The notes under the pieces were generated by a model that had not been told where the DNA came from, did not search any database, and worked only from the letters and a program-made list of their open reading frames with translations. From a virus, in the IMG/VR virus record IMGVR_UViG_3300031857_001283, positions 1 through 24,957 of that record: 24,957 bases of DNA; one strand, 5' to 3'. Below, piece after piece: positions 3,692 through 23,565 of this stretch (positions within the stretch are counted from its first letter, which is position 1; each line of letters starts with the position of its first letter). The position numbers and the translations under genes were made by a program.

Positions 3692-3907
3692 ATGAACCTG
3701 CTAAAGAAGGCGCTAGCGCATTTGACTTCACAAGTCAAGAAACCTAGTGTTAAACTTCCACTATTAGAAAAGCCCCATACGATACGACATGACAATCAAT
3801 CTATCCAAGACGGGGTGATACATGAAAAAACTGACTCTGGTATGCGAGGCGCAAGTAAAACTAGCGCAGGGCGCAAACGAAGCACAAAATCCAAGCGGAC
3901 GAATTGA
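3692..3907 (+). CDS. Hypothetical small basic protein, doubtful
   Basis: This 71-residue ORF starts one base after the portal stop codon and would fill the 131-base gap before the protease gene. It then overlaps the protease by 86 bases in another frame. GGGAGC lies a few bases before its ATG. The predicted product is rich in Lys and Arg, especially in the part that overlaps the protease, and I recognise no family. The start position directly after the portal favours a real coupled gene. The long overlap and the low-complexity tail argue against it. If it is not coding, the gap 3692-3821 holds only the protease leader. Confidence 0.35.
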   Translation: MNLLKKALAHLTSQVKKPSVKLPLLEKPHTIRHDNQSIQDGVIHEKTDSGMRGASKTSAGRKRSTKSKRTN

Positions 3908-4643
3908 AGCCCGAGTGACTACTTGGGGTGCCCGTGAAGGTGCTGACGGGCGCAAGTTCAATTACCAGCCAGAAGGTTTTGCAGATTGGGCAAAAGAATT
4001 CAAAGAAGCAGGTAAGCCCCTGCCAATGTTCTTAAACCACAATGACCTCGGTATGCCGATGGGCGAGTGGACAAAGTTTGAGTTCGATGATGACGGCATG
4101 ACTGCCGAAGGTCGGCTCTATCTCAATACGGTAGGCGGTAATGACCTCTACCAAATCCTCAAAGAATCTCCCAATATGTTCGGCGGTGTATCAGTTGGTG
4201 CATACGCCGAAGAGGCGTGCTGGGTAAATACTGAAGGCGACATCCTTGACCCTGAAGACATGGATTTTGATTTTGAGGATGCTTATTTTCAAATTACCAA
4301 AGGCGGTCTGCGTGAAGTATCGGTGGTTATGTACCCGAACAACCCAGATGCCGAAATTCAAAAACTTGAGATGTTCGATGCCACTGGGCATTTGAATGTC
4401 CGCTCAGTTGAGAAGACCTTGCGTGAGGCGGGTCTATCAAGAAAGGATGCGACCACCGCATCTTTGGTTTTCAAGCGTGCAGTTGACTTGCGTGAGGCAG
4501 TCACAAAGCCGCTTGATAAAACGCCAAGTCAGAGTGATTCTGATGCGGTGGCACAGGAAGCCAATGCACTCCTAGAGGCTCTTGCCGCAAGGGAACTCGC
4601 AAAGGCACTCGACAAACGCATTCAGAAAGGAATCGCAAAATGA
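3822..4643 (+). CDS. Prohead maturation protease, S78 (HK97) type
   Basis: This 273-residue protein is probably the serine protease that sits inside the prohead and removes the capsid scaffold domain before DNA fills the head. Residues expected for the catalytic site are visible: FLNHND with His73, a GVSVGA segment with Ser124 as nucleophile, and LREVSVV with Glu165 as the likely third member. The N-terminal RIEARVTTWG strand is also typical. Residues after about 185 form a charged, helical C-terminal extension (many Ala, Glu and Lys), probably involved in prohead targeting. The ATG at 3822 has GGGGTG a few bases upstream, and the next in-frame Met lies too deep in the domain. Its TGA overlaps the capsid ATG as ATGA, so the two genes are translationally coupled. 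Confidence 0.92.
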   Translation: MKKLTLVCEAQVKLAQGANEAQNPSGRIEARVTTWGAREGADGRKFNYQPEGFADWAKEFKEAGKPLPMFLNHNDLGMPMGEWTKFEFDDDGMTAEGRLYLNTVGGNDLYQILKESPNMFGGVSVGAYAEEACWVNTEGDILDPEDMDFDFEDAYFQITKGGLREVSVVMYPNNPDAEIQKLEMFDATGHLNVRSVEKTLREAGLSRKDATTASLVFKRAVDLREAVTKPLDKTPSQSDSDAVAQEANALLEALAARELAKALDKRIQKGIAK

Positions 4644-5983
4644 GTATCGAAAAAGTACTGGAGAAAGTTGATGCAATCGAAGCATCCAATCTCTCCAAAA
4701 TTGAAGAAATGAAATCGGAAGTGACCGCCTCGGTTGATGCCGCAAAAGCAGAAATCGAAGAGAAGTTCAATTCTCTTGAGGCAAAAGTTGCTTCTATCAA
4801 TGTGCCCGAAATCATGCGTGCACCCGCAAAGACTGTTCGTGCAGATGTGAACCGTATGGTCACTGAGCAACTGAAGAACTTTGCCAAAGGCAATGGTCGT
4901 GTGCAGAGCGAACTCAAAGTGTTCGAATCTGTTGACCAGTATGACGCATACATGAAGGAAGCCTCTGCGCTGACTGGCTCTGGTGCTGGCATTGGTGGTC
5001 GTACTGCGTATGACCCTGTGTTCCACCGCCTGCGTCTTGCTAACCCCTTGCGTGGTACTTCTCGCAATGTCTCTACTGATGGTGCAACCTATCAGTTCAG
5101 AGCCAAGACGGGCAACGCTGGACCCGCTTGGGGCTATGCCATTCAGAACAACGGTGCGGCAACCACTGAATCGACTTCCATTTGGCAGTTGAACCTCAAA
5201 GACCTGAATGTGCAGTTCCCGATTCGTACTGCCGCTCTAGACGACATTGATGGTTTGGAAGCCAATGTGGTTGACGACATGCTTGTGGAATTCAGTCAGG
5301 CTGAAGGCTCCAGCATGATTGTCAACAATGACCAAGCAGGTTCTACCACTACTGCAACTGGTGCAACTGATGGTTTGCGTGGTCTGGATTCATATCCCGG
5401 TGCGAATGCTTCTTACACTGGTGGCACTATCTCGACAGCCGCTTTCGGTTCTTCGGGTACTGCTAACTCTGACGGTATGCACTCCCTCGCCACCTATGAC
5501 CAGTTGACTACCAACGCCGCTGGCTCGGTAAACAATGTGTCGTTTGAAGACATCATCACGTTCTTGCACAGCCTGCCACAGCAATACTGGAGCAATGGCA
5601 ACAAGTTCTTGGTTTCGCCTCTGATGCTGGCGGCTATCCGTGGTCTGAAAGATGACAACGGTACCCCTGTGTTTGAGCGTATGTCTCCTCTGGTGTATGA
5701 GGGCATCGTTGGTAAGTTGCTTGGCTACGATGTGGTTGTCAACGCATACGTTGATAGCCCGATTGCCGCAGGTGCATCTCCCGGTACTGTTTCGCAGTAC
5801 CCAATGTACTTCGGTGACTTCAGCCGTGGTCACACCATCGTTGACCGTCTGAATATGGTTTTGCGCCGCTATGACCAAACGCAACCCGGATTTATCACCT
5901 TCTACGGTGAGAAGCGTTTGTGCTCGAGCGTGGTAGACCCGTTCAGCATCATCCGTTATCGCTCCACTGCAACTGGTGCGTAA
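4640..5983 (+). CDS. Major capsid protein with N-terminal scaffold (delta) domain, HK97 fold
   Basis: This 447-residue protein is the main shell subunit. Residues 1 to about 105 are charged and helix-forming with coiled-coil character (rich in Glu, Lys and Ala). This is the expected delta domain that acts as internal scaffold and is cut off by the upstream protease. The mature domain begins near EASALTGSGAGIGGRT (about 107-122) and ends with PGFITFYGEKRL and VVDPFSIIRY, a typical end for HK97-fold capsid proteins. The mature part would be about 340 residues, including only one cysteine. The gene follows the protease with an ATGA overlap. A second capsid-like gene directly downstream is clearly homologous to the mature part only. 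The exact cleavage site cannot be read from the sequence. Confidence 0.95.
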   Translation: MSIEKVLEKVDAIEASNLSKIEEMKSEVTASVDAAKAEIEEKFNSLEAKVASINVPEIMRAPAKTVRADVNRMVTEQLKNFAKGNGRVQSELKVFESVDQYDAYMKEASALTGSGAGIGGRTAYDPVFHRLRLANPLRGTSRNVSTDGATYQFRAKTGNAGPAWGYAIQNNGAATTESTSIWQLNLKDLNVQFPIRTAALDDIDGLEANVVDDMLVEFSQAEGSSMIVNNDQAGSTTTATGATDGLRGLDSYPGANASYTGGTISTAAFGSSGTANSDGMHSLATYDQLTTNAAGSVNNVSFEDIITFLHSLPQQYWSNGNKFLVSPLMLAAIRGLKDDNGTPVFERMSPLVYEGIVGKLLGYDVVVNAYVDSPIAAGASPGTVSQYPMYFGDFSRGHTIVDRLNMVLRRYDQTQPGFITFYGEKRLCSSVVDPFSIIRYRSTATGA

Positions 5984-5990
5984 CTTAAGC

Positions 5991-6012
5991 GAGGGGGGCG
6001 AAAGCCCCTCTC
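5991..6012 (+). terminator. Strong GNRA-loop hairpin after the first capsid gene
   Basis: GAGGGGGGC (5991-5999) pairs with GCCCCTCTC (6004-6012) around a GAAA tetraloop, giving nine pairs with one G-T wobble. It begins eight bases after the capsid stop codon. The 3' side is TCTCTTC rather than a run of U, so it may work as a partial terminator, a 3'-end stabiliser for the abundant capsid message, or part of a translation switch for the next gene. Confidence 0.65.
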
Positions 6013-6025
6013 TCTTCAACGAGAG
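6010..6025 (+). promoter_or_regulatory. Alternative hairpin that hides the ribosome binding site of the second capsid gene
   Basis: CTCTC (6010-6014) can pair with GAGAG (6021-6025) across the loop TTCAAC. GAGAG is the main part of the ribosome binding site GAGAGGA (6021-6027) for the ATG at 6034. The hairpin shares bases 6010-6012 with the stronger hairpin at 5991-6012, so the two cannot both form completely. The pairing is seen in the sequence; a regulatory role is inferred. Confidence 0.4.
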
Positions 6026-6033
6026 GAAATGAT

Positions 6034-7056
6034 ATGACCGCAGAAAAGAAAATTTTAGAAGGCATCAAACAGTCACTACTCACTGGTGAGCGTGTGACGA
6101 TTGACCTGCGTGAGGCTTCGACCCTTACGGGTTCGGGTCTGGATGTCGGCGGTCGTACTCACTTCGATGATGTCTTTGCCCGTGCCCGTCTTGCAAACCC
6201 TTTGCGTATGGGTGCACGAATCATCAAAGCACCGGATATGTCGGCAGTGGCTTTTGTTGCCAAGACAGGTAATGCCACTAATTCGACTAACCCGTGGGGC
6301 TACACTTTTACACCCAACTCAGGTAGTCCCAATGTGGCTACCACTTTTTGGCAACTGCCCACCCGTGTGGTAACGGCTCAGTTGCCTGTTCGTCTTGCCG
6401 CCCTTGACGACATCAATGGTCTAGAGGCTGGTTTGCTTGAAGACCTTGCGATGGAATTTGCACAAGTTGAAGGTGCATCCATGGCAACCAACAATGACCA
6501 ATCTGGAAGCACGACAACCATTACAGGCGCAACAGAAGGCTTGCGTGGTTTGGATATGTACCTGTCTGGTGCAACCTCTGCATACGGCACTAGCGGTGCG
6601 GCAATGACCAACGGCATCCACACCATTGCCACTGTGTCTCTTGGCGGTGTGACTGCAACTTACAACAAAATCGTAGACATTGCCAATGCACTTCCCGCTC
6701 AGTATTGGGCACGGAACACTTGTGCTTGGCACATGACCCCGACCATGATTCAGACCTTGCGTCAGTTGAAGGACACCAACAACTTGCCGCTGTTCTTGGA
6801 ATTGGGTGAACCCGGAGAGGGCGGTGCTGTCGGCTCTATCTTTGGCTGGCCTGTGATTCCAAACTCCTACCTGTCCAATACCTTCCCCATCTATCTTGCT
6901 TGCTGGGAATGCTTCCTGACGATTGCAGATGTGGAAGAAATGACTTGCCAAATGATGGAGGAAACCGCACCCGGATTTGTGACCATGTTCTGCGAAAAGC
7001 GGCTGGTGTCTACTGTCCGTGACCCGTTTGCGGGTGTTCGTGCATCTGCCGCCTAA
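6034..7056 (+). CDS. Second capsid protein paralogue lacking the scaffold domain
   Basis: This 340-residue protein is homologous to the mature domain of the upstream capsid protein. Matching landmarks are EASTLTGSGLDVGGRT against EASALTGSGAGIGGRT, then ARLANPLR, AALDDINGLEA, TGATEGLRGLD, and at the C-terminus PGFVTMFCEKRL with RDPF. The alignment offset is about 80 residues: only about 26 residues precede the shared block, so the delta domain is missing. Five cysteines fall in the C-terminal half, against one in the first protein. It has its own ribosome binding site, GAGAGGA, 6 bases before the ATG. It could be a minor capsid, vertex-type subunit that co-assembles with the first, by analogy with the T4 gp23/gp24 pair, or a recent duplicate undergoing divergence. 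The homology is seen; the role is inferred. Confidence 0.9.
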   Translation: MTAEKKILEGIKQSLLTGERVTIDLREASTLTGSGLDVGGRTHFDDVFARARLANPLRMGARIIKAPDMSAVAFVAKTGNATNSTNPWGYTFTPNSGSPNVATTFWQLPTRVVTAQLPVRLAALDDINGLEAGLLEDLAMEFAQVEGASMATNNDQSGSTTTITGATEGLRGLDMYLSGATSAYGTSGAAMTNGIHTIATVSLGGVTATYNKIVDIANALPAQYWARNTCAWHMTPTMIQTLRQLKDTNNLPLFLELGEPGEGGAVGSIFGWPVIPNSYLSNTFPIYLACWECFLTIADVEEMTCQMMEETAPGFVTMFCEKRLVSTVRDPFAGVRASAA

Positions 7057-7066
7057 GAGGTGACCC

Positions 7067-7720
7067 ATGCCAGTAGAAAACATGACGCTTGCTCCGTTTT
7101 ATGCGGGCAATCGTAACCCTTTCAACTATGCCAAGATTGAGCAGGTTTCGAGGGATTTGGCTACGGCATGGCTGACGCTGGACGAAATCACTCAGCAACT
7201 CAACCTGTTTCAAGACGAAAGCCAAGACCAGTATCTGGAGTCCATCGAACTTGCCACCCGTATGGCAATTGAGGATTTTCTTGGCATGGCAATCTTCCCG
7301 ACCACATGGCGCACTTACTACGCCAACTTGGGTGTCTACAACACTCAGTGGTTCCTTGACTTGCCAGAAGTGGGGCTTGGTGCAACTGGTGTGACCATCA
7401 ACAAAGTAGAGGTCTACACCACATCGAATACTGTGCCTGTGACGCTTGCGGCTAACTCATATTCGTATGACCCAACGGGCAACCGAGTCATCTTGAACCA
7501 GTTGCCAAACAATCTGAACCAGAACATCGTCAACCCGATTGTGGTGACCTACACCCAGAACACCAGCATCATTGCTCAGTACCCCGTCATTAAACAGGCA
7601 GGGTTGATGCTGTTGACTCACATTTACAACAACCGCTCCAACACTACCGACATGAACCTCAAAGAGATTCCGTTTGGTGTGGCGCAGTTGCTTCGTCCGT
7701 ACAAGCCGCTGGTCATGTGA
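7067..7720 (+). CDS. Head-tail connector protein (gp6-like)
   Basis: This 217-residue protein probably binds under the portal as the first ring of the neck. It has an N-terminal mostly helical segment (SLD-like LTLDEITQQLNL, then IELATRMAIEDFLG), a central beta-rich part with YSYDPTGNRVIL, and a C-terminal helix ending in IPFGVAQLLRPYKPLVM. The ending is very characteristic of HK97 gp6-like and phiE125 gp8-like connectors. Its position right after the capsid genes and before a head-closure protein fits. GAGGTG lies a few bases before the ATG at 7067, and only ten bases separate it from the second capsid gene. Confidence 0.87.
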   Translation: MPVENMTLAPFYAGNRNPFNYAKIEQVSRDLATAWLTLDEITQQLNLFQDESQDQYLESIELATRMAIEDFLGMAIFPTTWRTYYANLGVYNTQWFLDLPEVGLGATGVTINKVEVYTTSNTVPVTLAANSYSYDPTGNRVILNQLPNNLNQNIVNPIVVTYTQNTSIIAQYPVIKQAGLMLLTHIYNNRSNTTDMNLKEIPFGVAQLLRPYKPLVM

Positions 7721-8517: not shown

Positions 8518-9042
8518 ATGGCACTCATCAATAAAGTCATGCCGGGATATTCCGCAACACTGTGGATGCAGGATGACGTAACCCCTACGCCTTTGACTGA
8601 CGCTCAACTGGCAACATGGACTGCTCAAGTAGCAGACATTGTTGGAACTGCGGCTGGTGGCACTGGTACTGCTGGTTATGTGGTTCCTGTGGAGGCAATT
8701 CCTGCTTTTGGTGCAGATGACGCATTTGCCGCTTACTCAGTGGCTGGTGCTCGCACTGGTGCAAAAATCACCACACAGAACCAAGTCACTTCACTGACCA
8801 TCACTGCGGCATGGAATCCTGCTGATGCGGCAATGCTTCAGATTCGTGCAGACGGCTATGGCGGTACGACTATCCGTACCTACGTCATTGCTGTTTACGA
8901 TGGCACCAACACCGTTGCCTATGCGTTCAACGCCCGTGTCGGTGGTATGCAGTGGGATATGTCGCCAAGTGCAGAAGGTAAGTTCATCTTTACTTTGCAC
9001 CCAACTGGTGGCAACTCTTACGGCTGGTCTACTAACCCGTAA
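8518..9042 (+). CDS. Major tail tube protein
   Basis: This 174-residue protein is probably the tail tube subunit. It has an Ala/Gly/Thr rich, beta-strand-forming sequence with a central KITTQNQVTSLTIT and a long strand-rich second half ending in HPTGGNSYGWSTNP. Long non-helical chains of this size, placed between the tail terminator and the chaperone genes, are normally the tube. It has a strong ribosome binding site (AAAGGAACG before the ATG) and is followed by a very good rho-independent terminator, which is expected of an abundantly made protein. I do not recognise a precise Pfam family by eye. Confidence 0.75.
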   Translation: MALINKVMPGYSATLWMQDDVTPTPLTDAQLATWTAQVADIVGTAAGGTGTAGYVVPVEAIPAFGADDAFAAYSVAGARTGAKITTQNQVTSLTITAAWNPADAAMLQIRADGYGGTTIRTYVIAVYDGTNTVAYAFNARVGGMQWDMSPSAEGKFIFTLHPTGGNSYGWSTNP

Positions 9043-9045
9043 AGG

Positions 9046-9066
9046 AAGCCCCTTCGGGGGCTTTTT
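9046..9066 (+). terminator. UUCG-loop rho-independent terminator
   Basis: AAGCCCC (9046-9052) pairs with GGGGCTT (9057-9063) around a TTCG loop, and a T run follows (9062-9066). This is a textbook intrinsic terminator three bases after the tail tube stop codon. Downstream tail genes must rely on readthrough or on another promoter, so it probably lowers their expression relative to the tube. Confidence 0.88.
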
Positions 9067-13872: not shown

Positions 13873-14462
13873 ATAACATCCCACCAGTTCAAAACACGAA
13901 CAACATTCGCTACGCTGACTTTGTGCGGGTCACAAGTCCAAGTGGCACTTATCGCTTTGCGACAACAGCCGCTCCATTGACCATCCCTGCGGTAGATGCT
14001 AACCCTTTCTCAGCCCTCGGTGTGCTGGTCAAAGTCGGTGATGCTCAACGGGACATCAAATCCACTGCCAATGAAACCACTTTCTCATTGGTGGGCATTG
14101 ACACTGCCATGCTTGGCTTTGTCTTGGGGCAACAGATTAAGGGGTCACAGATTGAGGCATGGAAGGGCTTTTTCGACACTGATGGCAACCTGATTACGAC
14201 AGGCGGCACAGGTGGTCTATACCAGTTCTTCAACGGCTACATCTCCACCTTCTCCATCACTGAGCAGTGGCTTGAGGAAGCACGGCAGTTTGTCGGGGTT
14301 ATTTCTGTGGCGGCATCTTCTATTCAACTGATTCTGCAAAACCGCATAGCGGGGCGATATACCAACGACAACTCATGGCAATTCTTTGCTCCCGGAGACA
14401 CAAGCATGGAGCGGGTGGCATTTATTACCACCATCAACTATCCATTTGGTAAAGACACATGA
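13869..14462 (+). CDS. Minor tail protein, DUF2163-like
   Basis: This 197-residue protein begins with GTG overlapping the preceding stop codon. The C-terminal half contains LILQNRIAGRYTNDNSWQFF followed by PGDTSMERV, a pattern of an Arg/Asn motif and an FxPGD element seen in phage minor tail proteins of the DUF2163 or lambda L-adjacent group. The N-terminal half (ADFVRVTSPSGTYRF, and later AFSALGVLVKVGDAQRDIK-like strands) is strand rich. In lambda-like and gene transfer agent tails the protein in this place helps connect the tube tip to the hub. No cysteines are seen, so an Fe-S cluster as in lambda gpL is unlikely. Confidence 0.62.
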   Translation: MNNIPPVQNTNNIRYADFVRVTSPSGTYRFATTAAPLTIPAVDANPFSALGVLVKVGDAQRDIKSTANETTFSLVGIDTAMLGFVLGQQIKGSQIEAWKGFFDTDGNLITTGGTGGLYQFFNGYISTFSITEQWLEEARQFVGVISVAASSIQLILQNRIAGRYTNDNSWQFFAPGDTSMERVAFITTINYPFGKDT

Positions 14463-14893
14463 TTCGTGAAGCCAACCGATACGACAAAGACGAAATCATT
14501 TCCATGATGAAAGAGTTTCGTGACTCTGCTGACTTCATTGAAGTGCTGGCAGAGGACAATGTGGAGTATTGGCATCGCTTGCTAGACAGCATCTTTGCAG
14601 GGGCAGGGAAAGTTTTTTACGCTGAAGGCAAGGGCTTGCTTATGTGCGTCATCATGCCGACAGTGTGGGATGACAAGATGTTCGCCTTGCATGAGTTGGC
14701 TTGGTATGTGCGCTTCCCATACCGAGGTGGAACAACTGGCTACCGCTTGTTTGATGAGTACATCAAATACGGCAAGGCTTTGAAAGAGGCAGGACGAATC
14801 AAATACTTCACGATGACGAAACTAGATGTAAGCCCTGACCTTGATTACGCTCGGTTTGGCTTTCGAAAAAAAGATGAGAATTGGATTCAATGA
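14459..14893 (+). CDS. GNAT-like acetyltransferase in the tail operon
   Basis: This 144-residue protein has the general layout of a GNAT N-acetyltransferase. It starts MIREANRYDKDEIISMMKEF, has a central strand pair, and then YRGGTTGYRLFDEY (about 88-101), whose RGGTTG is a candidate acetyl-CoA phosphate loop following the GNAT R/Q-x-x-G-x-G/A pattern. A final FGFRKKDENWIQ is usual for the last strand. The gene is translationally coupled on both sides (ATGA overlaps), so it is an integral part of the tail operon. It sits where lambda-like phages often have an NlpC/P60 peptidase (gpK). Its substrate is unknown. Confidence 0.7.
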   Translation: MIREANRYDKDEIISMMKEFRDSADFIEVLAEDNVEYWHRLLDSIFAGAGKVFYAEGKGLLMCVIMPTVWDDKMFALHELAWYVRFPYRGGTTGYRLFDEYIKYGKALKEAGRIKYFTMTKLDVSPDLDYARFGFRKKDENWIQ

Positions 14894-19943: not shown

Positions 19944-21344
19944 ATGGCTAATACCATACGAATTAAACGCCGTGCCAACGGCGGTGGAGCAGGTGCACCA
20001 GCATCATTGGCAAACGCTGAATTAGCGTTCAACGAACAAACAAACATTCTCTACTACGGTACTGGCACGGGCGGTGCAGGTGGCACGGCTACCTCCGTCA
20101 TTGCCATTGCGGGTAACGGTGCTTTTGTGGATATGTCCAGCAACCAAACCATTGGTGGCATCAAGACATTTACCAGCACCATCAGTGGCTCGATTGACGG
20201 CAATGCTGGCACAGCGACCAAGTGGGCAACTGCCCGTGACCTGTCCCTGACAGGTGATGGTACGGCTACCCTGACTGCTGTCGATGGCTCTGCTAATGTG
20301 TCTGCGGCACTGACCCTTGCAACAGTCAACTCCAACATTGGCACTTATACCAAAATCACCATCAATGCCAAAGGCTTGGCAACGGCTGGCTCTCAAGCAA
20401 GCCTGTCTGACCTGTCTAGCCCCACTGGTAACTTCAGTTTTGCAAGCAATCGTCTGACTGACCTTGCTGACCCCGTGGCGAACTCTGATGCCGCAAACAA
20501 AGGGTATGTCGATTCTGTGGCGCAGGGCTTGGATGTAAAAGCCTCTGTGGTGGTAGCAACTACTGCCAACATTACTCTGTCGGGTGTTCAAACCATTGAC
20601 GGCATTTCTGTGGTGGCTGGTGACCGAGTGCTGGTCAAGAATCAAACCACTCAGTCACAAAACGGCATTTATGTGGCATCTGCTTCTGCATGGTCACGCT
20701 CATCTGATGCGGACACATGGCAAGAGTTAGTGTCGGCTTTCACTTTTGTTGAGCAAGGCACAACTCAAGCAGACACGGGCTGGGTGTGTACGGTTAACGC
20801 TGGCGGCACTCTTGGTTCTACTGCGGTCACTTGGGCGCAGTTCTCAGGTGCTGGCACTTACTCGGCTGGTGATGGTCTGTCCTTGACGGGCACTACCTTT
20901 GCTGTGGTTGGAACCACCAACCGAATTTCTGTGTCTGCAAGTGGTGTAGACATTGCCTCCACCTATGTCGGTCAGTCCAGCATCACTACACTGGGCACCA
21001 TTGGCACTGGCACTTGGCAAGCCACAACCATTGGCACAGGCTATGGCGGCACAGGGCTGACTTCCTTTACTTCTGGCGGTGCTGTCTATGCCACCTCTAC
21101 CTCTGCATTGACCACTGGCACTTTGCCTGTGACTGCTGGCGGTACTGGTGCAACGACTCTGACGGGCTATGTGAAAGGCAGTGGCACTTCTGCATTTACT
21201 GCATCTAGCACTATCCCGAACACCGACATCACTGGCTTGGGAACGATGTCGACTCAGAACGCCAACAATGTGGCAATCACTGGTGGTAGTATTACAAACC
21301 TGACCACCTTTGACGGAATCACCATCGACGGCGGCACTTTCTAA
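19944..21344 (+). CDS. Tail fibre protein 1
   Basis: This 466-residue protein begins IRIKRRANGGGAGAPASL, then ELAFNEQTNILYYG, a short attachment domain that matches the start of the next fibre and looks like Mtd-type N-terminal domains. It continues with a GNAGTATKWATARDL module, a widespread fibre segment with DAANKGYVDSVAQGLDVKAS and then GVQTIDGISVVAGDRVLVKN, and Gly/Thr-rich repeats such as GTGTWQATTIGTGYGGTGLT. The C-terminus ends TTFDGITIDGGTF. It is probably a trimeric fibre. The ribosome binding site AAGGAG lies eight bases before the ATG. It ends near two palindromes. Confidence 0.85.
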   Translation: MANTIRIKRRANGGGAGAPASLANAELAFNEQTNILYYGTGTGGAGGTATSVIAIAGNGAFVDMSSNQTIGGIKTFTSTISGSIDGNAGTATKWATARDLSLTGDGTATLTAVDGSANVSAALTLATVNSNIGTYTKITINAKGLATAGSQASLSDLSSPTGNFSFASNRLTDLADPVANSDAANKGYVDSVAQGLDVKASVVVATTANITLSGVQTIDGISVVAGDRVLVKNQTTQSQNGIYVASASAWSRSSDADTWQELVSAFTFVEQGTTQADTGWVCTVNAGGTLGSTAVTWAQFSGAGTYSAGDGLSLTGTTFAVVGTTNRISVSASGVDIASTYVGQSSITTLGTIGTGTWQATTIGTGYGGTGLTSFTSGGAVYATSTSALTTGTLPVTAGGTGATTLTGYVKGSGTSAFTASSTIPNTDITGLGTMSTQNANNVAITGGSITNLTTFDGITIDGGTF

Positions 21345-21408: not shown

Positions 21409-23565
21409 ATGGCGAACATTATCAAGCCCAAGCGTAGCAATACGGGTGGGGCTGTGCCAACGACAGGTCAACTTGCCTCTGGTGAGTTGGCTGTCAACAT
21501 GGCAGACAAGAAGGTCTACATCAACAACGGCACGGCTGTGGTGCAGGTTGGTGCTGGCAACCTTGACGGGCTTGGCGATACCAACATCACCTCTCCCACC
21601 AATGGTCAAGGACTGTCCTACAACTCATCGACAGGCAAATGGGTCAATTCCAATGCTGGTACGGGGGATGTAGTTGGTCCTGCATCTTCAACAGACAATG
21701 CCCTTGCTCGGTTTGACGGCACAACGGGCAAACTGATTCAAAACGGCACAGTCACTCAAGACGACAACGGCAATCTGGCATCGGTCAATGGACTGTCGTT
21801 CAACACCAGCCCAACGAGTGCTCCAAGCACAGCAGGTTCTGTCTTTTGGGATTCAGGGGATGGCACACCCAGCGTTGTTCTCAATGCCAATACCTCTCTC
21901 CAGTTGGGTCAAGAAAGCATTGCCAAGGTCTACAACGGCACAGGCTCAACCATTGCCAAAGGCAAAGTAGTTGCAGTATCAGGGGCACAGGGTCAAAGAC
22001 CCTCTGTAGTCCTTGCAGATGCTGATTCTGAGGCTTTAAGTGCCCCGACACTGGGTATCACTGCGGAAGCCATTGCAAACGGCGCAGAGGGCTTTGTCTG
22101 CACTTTTGGCTTGGTTCGTGGCATAGACACCTCTGCTTTTACAGCAGGCAATCCAATTTACCTTTCGTCAACGGCTGGAGACTTCACGGCTACCAAGCCA
22201 GTTGCACCGCAACATATCGTTGCGCTTGGGTGGGTAATTAAGGTCAACGCATCTAGCGGTGAAGTGTTCGTCAATATCAATAACGGATGGGAACTTGATG
22301 AACTCCACAATGTTCTCATTACCTCTCCTGCCAGTGGCAATACGCTCATCTATGATGCAACCGCAGGGGTATGGGAAAACGCCAGCCTGACGGCTGGCAC
22401 AGGCATCAGCATTACTAACGGGGCGGGAGCCATTACGGTTACTAACTCTGCCCCTGACCAGACAGTCTCGTTGACGGGAGCAGGGGCGACCACTATTAGT
22501 GGCACATACCCTAACTTCACTATCACTAGCGTCAACACCACATACTCAGCCGCCACTAGCACAACACTGGGTCTGATTGAGTTGGGTTCTGATACTGTGC
22601 AAACCACTGCCGCTAATGCAGTGACTAGCACGGCTTCCCGTACCTATGCTTTGCAGGTCAACTCTGCTGGGCAGGGGGTGGTCAATGTTCCTTGGACAGA
22701 CACTAACTCAGGCGGCACAGTCACAAGCATTACGGCTGGCACAGGCTTGTCTGGTGGCACCATCACTACTAGCGGAACCATTGCCCTTGCAAATACGGCA
22801 GTGACCGCTGGCTCATACACCAATGCCAACATCACTGTCGATGCTCAAGGTCGGATTACTTCTGCATCTAACGGCTCTGCTGGTGGGGTGACTTCATTTA
22901 GTGCAGGGTCAACTGGATTGACTCCAAGCACTGCCACTACTGGTGCAATTACTTTAGCAGGAACTTTGGCAGTCGCTAACGGTGGCACAGGGCAAACTAC
23001 TTACACCAACGGTCAACTGCTTATTGGCAATACGACAGGCAATACGCTTACCAAAGCCACTTTGACGGCTGGCACTGGTATCACCATTACCAATGGTGCT
23101 GGAAGCATTACGATTGCCGCTTCATCTGCAAGCAGTCAGTCATTGACTTATGACCAATTTACGGCAACTGCTAGTCAGACCACTTTTAACACTTCTCAGT
23201 CATACACCTCTGGAAAAATTCAAGTTTTTCTGGATGGGGTATTGCAACGAAATGGTGTAGATGTGACAGTTACTAGCGGCACTCAAGTGGTGTTTGCTAC
23301 TGCTTTGGATGCCAATGATTTAGTAGACATCATTTACCCGCCAGCCGCATCTAGCGGAACCATGCGGTATGACCAATTTACTGCAACAGCAGGACAAACA
23401 TCCTTTACCACTTCTGCCACTTACACCAACAGCAAAATCCAAGTTTTTGTCGATGGTGTGCTTCAGCGCAATGGTGTGGATGTGACTGTGACCAGTGGGA
23501 CGGCTGTGGTGTTTGCCACAGGTTTGACTGCTGGTGACTTGGTAGATGTATCGTATCCAGTTTAA
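21409..23565 (+). CDS. Tail fibre protein 2, with tandem C-terminal modules
   Basis: This 718-residue protein shares with fibre 1 a start of the type MANIIKPKRSNTGG and ELAVNMADKKVYINNGT (about residues 26-42), probably the domain that docks to the tail. A module LGDTNITSPTNGQGL (about 55-69) recurs as LHNVLITSPASGNTL (about 299-313). The region 165-300 is a beta domain (KVYNGTGSTIAKGKVV), and after 330 come Gly/Thr-rich repeats and VANGGTGQTTYTNGQLLIGN. Two near-identical modules of about 63 residues (starting at 581 and 654) form the C-terminus. It is probably the receptor-binding or hub-binding fibre. The ribosome binding site AGGGGAG precedes the ATG. Confidence 0.87.
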   Translation: MANIIKPKRSNTGGAVPTTGQLASGELAVNMADKKVYINNGTAVVQVGAGNLDGLGDTNITSPTNGQGLSYNSSTGKWVNSNAGTGDVVGPASSTDNALARFDGTTGKLIQNGTVTQDDNGNLASVNGLSFNTSPTSAPSTAGSVFWDSGDGTPSVVLNANTSLQLGQESIAKVYNGTGSTIAKGKVVAVSGAQGQRPSVVLADADSEALSAPTLGITAEAIANGAEGFVCTFGLVRGIDTSAFTAGNPIYLSSTAGDFTATKPVAPQHIVALGWVIKVNASSGEVFVNINNGWELDELHNVLITSPASGNTLIYDATAGVWENASLTAGTGISITNGAGAITVTNSAPDQTVSLTGAGATTISGTYPNFTITSVNTTYSAATSTTLGLIELGSDTVQTTAANAVTSTASRTYALQVNSAGQGVVNVPWTDTNSGGTVTSITAGTGLSGGTITTSGTIALANTAVTAGSYTNANITVDAQGRITSASNGSAGGVTSFSAGSTGLTPSTATTGAITLAGTLAVANGGTGQTTYTNGQLLIGNTTGNTLTKATLTAGTGITITNGAGSITIAASSASSQSLTYDQFTATASQTTFNTSQSYTSGKIQVFLDGVLQRNGVDVTVTSGTQVVFATALDANDLVDIIYPPAASSGTMRYDQFTATAGQTSFTTSATYTNSKIQVFVDGVLQRNGVDVTVTSGTAVVFATGLTAGDLVDVSYPV
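23149..23565 (+). repeat. Tandem C-terminal module of fibre 2, two copies
   Basis: Both copies begin YDQFTATA and share GVLQRNGVDVTVTSGT and VVFAT. They start 219 bases apart (codons at 23149 and 23368). The bases differ in many third positions (for example ttacggcaact against ttactgcaaca), so the duplication is not recent. The same module layout is seen more diverged at the end of the J-like protein. Confidence 0.88.

Follow-up and report, generated by a model that had tools for sequence, protein, structure and literature searches.

Bacteriophage T4 is, according to a 2025 paper, the single virus known to employ two HK97-fold proteins in separate roles, and nearly all other HK97-fold shells are formed from one flexible subunit (PMC12407261). 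In T4, gp23 forms the hexamers and gp24 the vertices; one protease removes 65 residues from gp23 and only 10 from gp24, the latter being probably of duplication origin (PMC9958956). The scaffold core of this large myovirus is a separate structure, its protease is gp21, and its two paralogues are only approximately 20% identical. HK97 gp5, RcGTA and Pseudomonas phage D14E present the order portal, S78 protease, delta-domain capsid protein, with a single capsid gene serving hexamers and pentamers alike. Two adjoining HK97-fold shell genes are also found among the family 2B encapsulins (Streptomyces lydicus Enc1/Enc2), whose products co-assemble into one shell and display consistent sequence differences in the A-domain (PMC12407261), although these are cellular nanocompartments and lack a packaged genome as well as the portal, protease and delta domain. 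In a siphovirus, Caulobacter phage Colossus (gp36/gp81), the major capsid gene has a divergent duplicate; this case comes from one genome only, and the duplicate is located in a non-tandem position approximately 21 kb away (PMC3556154). The open-licence literature yielded no description of a siphovirus with a delta-less capsid paralogue in tandem.

Gene order and features of the locus

The DNA analyzed here (the window) comprises the 24,957 nucleotides of IMG/VR record IMGVR_UViG_3300031857_001283. Its structural module encodes the terminase small subunit, TerL, portal, S78 prohead protease, two capsid proteins (MCP1 and MCP2), connector, tail proteins and endolysin, and thus follows the HK97, RcGTA and D14E order with the exception that a second capsid gene is positioned between the capsid and connector genes. 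The two capsid open reading frames are uninterrupted. The features relevant to this study, all on the + strand, are as follows.

3822 to 4643, +: prohead protease of family S78, 273 aa (PF04586, E 1.9e-09; PHROG head maturation protease)
4640 to 5983, +: MCP1, major capsid protein with an N-terminal delta domain, 447 aa (PF05065, E 3.9e-30)
4640 to 4963, +: delta (scaffold) domain of MCP1, residues 1 to 108, with a cut predicted after A108 in EA|SALTGSG
5991 to 6012, +: terminator-like hairpin in the MCP1-MCP2 gap, with a 9-bp GC-rich stem and a GAAA loop, followed by TCTTCAAC
6034 to 7056, +: MCP2, delta-less capsid paralogue, 340 aa (PF05065, E 2.9e-17; 39% identity to MCP1, E 1e-83)
6034 to 6117, +: MCP2 leader, residues 1 to 28, ending in IDLREA|S, a putative short propeptide
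6280 to 6288, +: MCP2-specific insertion of three residues (83 to 85) at the E-loop tip, absent in >90% of MCP1s
7067 to 7720, +: head-tail connector (gp6-like), directly 3' of MCP2 (PF05135, E 9e-06; PHROG head-tail adaptor)

The protease retains readable His (LNHND), Ser (GGVSVGA) and Glu (LREVSVV) residues, which we take to be those of the S78 family. An Rfam search of the window returned no family. Elsewhere in the window, the adjoining proteins encoded at 19944-21344 and 21409-23565 have similar N termini (MANTIRIKRR and MANIIKPKRS), gave numerous hits to families of head-decoration and tail-fibre proteins, and are possibly related surface proteins. A small open reading frame of the tail module (14459-14893) resembles a GNAT acetyltransferase by eye, with no Pfam match at E 0.01.

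MCP1 and MCP2 are paralogues of the HK97 fold

The preliminary description of two HK97-fold capsid genes lying head to tail was confirmed by BLASTP, PF05065 and PHROG. The 39% identity between MCP1 and MCP2 extends over 364 alignment columns, far above chance, and MCP2 is thus a paralogue of the major capsid protein of its own genome, as is T4 gp24. Both proteins pass the curated cut-off of Pfam Phage_capsid (PF05065) and match the PHROG annotation "major head protein". Every sequence block previously named as common to the two is present, and the offset between them, formerly given as approximately 80 residues, is exactly 80 (MCP1 E107 corresponds to MCP2 E27). At E 0.001, PF05065 was the sole Pfam match of MCP2, which therefore does not belong to the T4 gp23/gp24 sequence family.

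The nearest solved relative of MCP1 is the RcGTA capsid protein (E 5e-08), while a profile of MCP2 yielded no match to solved structures at E 0.01. Structures of both proteins were predicted from alignments composed of the window and IMG/VR sequences, with the P19250A row (see below) left out. The MCP2 model, of modest confidence (pLDDT 57, pTM 0.59), adopts the HK97 fold; its best matches are the RcGTA and HK97 capsid chains (Foldseek E 2e-08, VIA Z 13), with Z values of 11 to 13 against the RcGTA, HK97 and T5 capsid proteins, and encapsulin shells were also matched. The MCP1 model is too poor for interpretation (pLDDT 46).

The tandem pair is widespread and old

The search for the tandem pair in other genomes, suggested in the preliminary description, was performed through five IMG/VR scans and one GTDB genome scan, which gave 211 distinct MCP2 sequences. 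MCP1 is located immediately 5' of MCP2 in all 204 testable cases, and the connector gene immediately 3' in all 193 testable loci. Carriers make up a sizeable group of tailed phages, most of which come from freshwater; plasmid relatives of MCP2 were not found. An MCP2 match was obtained in just one of 50,697 deposited phages, namely, Methylophilaceae phage P19250A (KX815270). It carries the same tandem pair (0005 and 0006, with identities of 58% and 52%) in the order S78 protease, MCP1, MCP2, connector, and the record labels 0005 "gene transfer agent capsid protein" and 0006, the MCP2, "hypothetical protein", leaving the pairing unremarked.

The MCP1-MCP2 gap is longer in nine loci, several of which contain an extra small gene. 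A gene of approximately 105 residues (PHROG 2859) is present between the two capsid genes in L171, L172, L173, L175, L176, L195 and L197, and an HNH-like endonuclease gene in L212; in L174 the long gap is only apparent because MCP2 itself holds an insert. MCP1 appears to be split in L145. One candidate for an MCP1 without MCP2 (L221) was rejected: the capsid sequence is a fragment of 69 residues at a MAG contig end, the remaining open reading frames of this contig look bacterial, and a misassembly is probable.

In a tree of 98 rows from 49 genomes, MCP1s and MCP2s are split with 100/100 support. When rooted with an outgroup of phages with a single annotated capsid gene, each family again forms one side of a branch, with support of 85 and 56 and a long outgroup branch. 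The simplest reading of these trees would be a single duplication prior to the split between the group of the window and that of P19250A. The earlier suggestion of a duplicate in transition toward a new role is not supported, as the duplication predates the entire clade sampled here and each copy has become fixed as a lineage of its own. The MCP1 and MCP2 trees conflict in places (L171 and its relatives group with the clade of the window by MCP1 and with L199 by MCP2), which suggests that capsid partners may have been exchanged between lineages by recombination.

MCP2 possesses a short leader and the predicted cut motif of MCP1

The S78 protease gene adjoins a capsid gene, that of MCP1, whose N-terminal domain is predicted to be helical (residues 3-52, 66-83 and 98-111, at low confidence). 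The predicted cut site of MCP1 lies in the motif E-A-S-[AT]-[LI]-T-G-S-G, which is nearly invariant in both families: among 123 distinct MCP1s, E is found in 122, A in 104 (S in 17) and S in 122, and the corresponding counts among 126 distinct MCP2s are 125, 123 and 125. E27 and A28 are invariant across 41 MCP2s. In MCP2, the motif is preceded by a conserved 28-residue leader (predicted helix at 3-17, strand at 21-24), so that the previous characterization of MCP2 as the mature domain only stands with respect to the absent delta domain and fails with respect to the leader. This leader ends in the predicted MCP1 cut motif and, if cut there, would be comparable to the short propeptide of T4 gp24. 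It could not be aligned to the MCP1 N terminus, and the notion that it represents a remnant of that region was rejected, since an ungapped profile comparison performed no better than column-shuffled leaders (fraction 0.5).

The RcGTA capsid chain has 297 of its 386 residues modelled, and profile alignment places its residue 110 opposite MCP1 residue 126. The motif would accordingly be located close to the start of the ordered chain of RcGTA, which fits the cuts predicted near MCP1 residue 108 and MCP2 residue 28. The S78 protease is expected to cut MCP1 and probably MCP2 as well.

Selection, codon bias and the intergenic hairpin

MCP2 is under purifying selection, with a median omega of 0.10 that resembles the values for MCP1 (0.11) and the protease (0.12). 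Frameshifts and relaxed selection, the sequence-based signs which the preliminary description had set against its own reading, were looked for in MCP2; no frameshifts were seen, and omega is not near 1. That MCP2 is a redundant or decaying duplicate without a distinct function, for which the duplication itself might speak, is highly improbable and was rejected on the basis of this omega, the old 100/100 split, the strong codon bias described below and the universal retention of MCP2, with no loss wherever this could be checked.

Of 58 non-redundant loci, nearly all have a GC-rich hairpin with a T-rich tail approximately 7 bases after the MCP1 stop codon. The median folding z-score of this hairpin is -3.2, as against approximately 0 for the sequences that follow the protease, MCP2 and connector genes, and compensatory changes occur in 7 of 9 consensus pairs in a 28-locus alignment. 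Several outgroup phages also harbor such hairpins 3' of their single capsid gene; the hairpin is, therefore, likely to be an inherited feature 3' of which MCP2 came to lie, and its origin need not be connected with the MCP1:MCP2 ratio. The only comparable hairpin in the head-to-tail-tube stretch of the window (9043-9066; -14 kcal/mol, with a TTCG loop and a T-rich tail) is located 3' of the gene at 8518-9042, which is likely to encode the tail tube based on its position and which has no Pfam or PHROG match.

Codon usage sets the two capsid genes apart from their neighbors, with a median ENC of 41.4 for MCP1 and 43.4 for MCP2, as against 48.8 to 50.7 for TerL, portal, protease and connector. 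MCP2 favors the preferred codons of MCP1 with a median z of 4 over an amino-acid-matched background, and to a far greater extent than the portal, protease, connector and terminase genes. The likely tail tube gene, whose product is probably abundant too, is without such bias, so that dose can be read from codon usage only imperfectly. The intergenic hairpin, coupled with the MCP1-like codon choice, suggests that MCP2 is probably an abundant virion protein whose dose would be below that of MCP1.

Loop differences between MCP1 and MCP2

MCP2 retains the N-arm, spine, C-terminal motifs and predicted cut site at approximately the level of conservation of MCP1. Three loops of MCP1 (residues 254-261, 290-295 and 375-382), which lie past the spine helix and before the last P-domain strands, are missing from MCP2, and we infer that they belong to the A-domain region which rings the capsomer. 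The same region is also the site of some of the T4 gp23 mutations that allow gp24 to be replaced (PMC9958956). At the E-loop tip, where MCP2 has its insertion of three residues, the MCP2 of L174 carries an in-frame, repetitive, Gly/Thr-rich insert of approximately 70 residues (from L174:6095 onward), which is possibly a surface-displayed domain; an inserted domain is found in the E loop of T4 gp23 as well (PMC9958956).

Proposed role of MCP2 and alternative readings

We consider it somewhat probable that this lineage possesses an obligate two-component HK97 shell in which delta-bearing and delta-less paralogues would co-assemble into fixed positions, representing a T4-independent division of labor between capsid proteins in a small and widespread siphovirus lineage that is common in lakes. 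For the position itself, we propose, at roughly an even chance of being correct, that MCP2 serves specifically as the vertex (pentamer) subunit, is assembled and processed together with MCP1, and has converged on T4 gp24 in a different, S78-protease siphovirus lineage. In this scheme, one shell would be constructed from the two HK97-fold proteins. MCP1, bearing the delta domain, would drive procapsid assembly and form the hexamers, while MCP2, lacking it, would not nucleate a shell alone and would join MCP1 procapsids as the pentamer subunit, numbering approximately 55 in the case of a T=7 shell that has a portal vertex. Cleavage by the S78 protease at EA|SxLTGSG would then release the delta domain from MCP1 (108 residues) and the leader from MCP2 (28 residues), with expansion of the shell to follow. 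A leaky terminator-like hairpin after MCP1 would hold MCP2 below MCP1, and MCP1-like codon choice would keep its level far over that of the portal and connector proteins, with their 12 copies. Cleavage, relative dose, co-assembly, vertex position and copy number are matters which we infer rather than observe directly.

The minor or vertex subunit envisaged in the preliminary description is consistent with the genetic linkage, purifying selection, codon bias, hairpin and cut-site motif, the position itself being presumed. The parallel with T4 lies in HK97-fold paralogues with a long and a short propeptide and one prohead protease, the cuts here being predicted. The present system differs from T4 in its genome of approximately 38 kb, its S78 protease, the fusion of the delta domain to MCP1, the higher identity of the paralogues and the tandem genes with their hairpin.

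A possible but clearly less favored arrangement is a mixed two-component lattice, in which MCP2 and MCP1 would both occupy hexamer (or any) positions, at random or in fixed quasi-equivalent ones, thereby tuning stability, size or surface. Two HK97-fold paralogues tile one shell irregularly in two-component encapsulins (PMC12407261), although the parallel is loose, given that encapsulins are without a portal, protease or delta domain; the pair described here, for which co-assembly is presumed, sits among terminase, portal, protease and connector genes. The strong MCP1-like codon bias of MCP2 would suit a high copy number, and being nearly equal to that of MCP1, it fits 55 copies as well as a more even mixture. 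The conflicts between the MCP1 and MCP2 trees (e.g., L171) also suggest partner exchange, but the fixed pattern of A-domain loop loss and E-loop gain in MCP2 points to a specialized position, and the hairpin between the genes suggests an unequal dose.

It is unlikely that MCP2 instead is confined to one particular position, for example in the capsomers that surround the portal vertex, or represents a surface variant, or one that binds decoration proteins, of low copy number. MCP2 is always directly 5' of the connector gene, in a common downstream transcription segment, but adjacency of capsid and connector genes is the ordinary gene order. The insert of L174 indicates that the E-loop surface can bear extra parts, whereas a codon bias far above that of the portal and connector genes argues for more than 12 copies. 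More doubtful again is a role for MCP2 as an assembly factor outside the final shell, in which this delta-less protein would, for example, cap growing shells, set their size or end their growth and then be absent from the virion. Such a role would accord with a protein that keeps the fold and lacks the scaffold domain, but the N-arm, spine, C-terminal motifs and cut site of MCP2 are conserved in the manner of a mature shell protein.

If the vertex assignment of MCP2 is correct, the pair would constitute a second, independent and genetically fixed case of two HK97-fold proteins in separate roles, in small S78-protease siphophages with hundreds of members, in which the scaffold is borne by one subunit and borrowed by the other. 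The origin of vertex specialization would also become testable, as the copies are still 39% identical, the genome is small and P19250A is cultured. The annotation of P19250A would be corrected, because its MCP2 is labelled as hypothetical.
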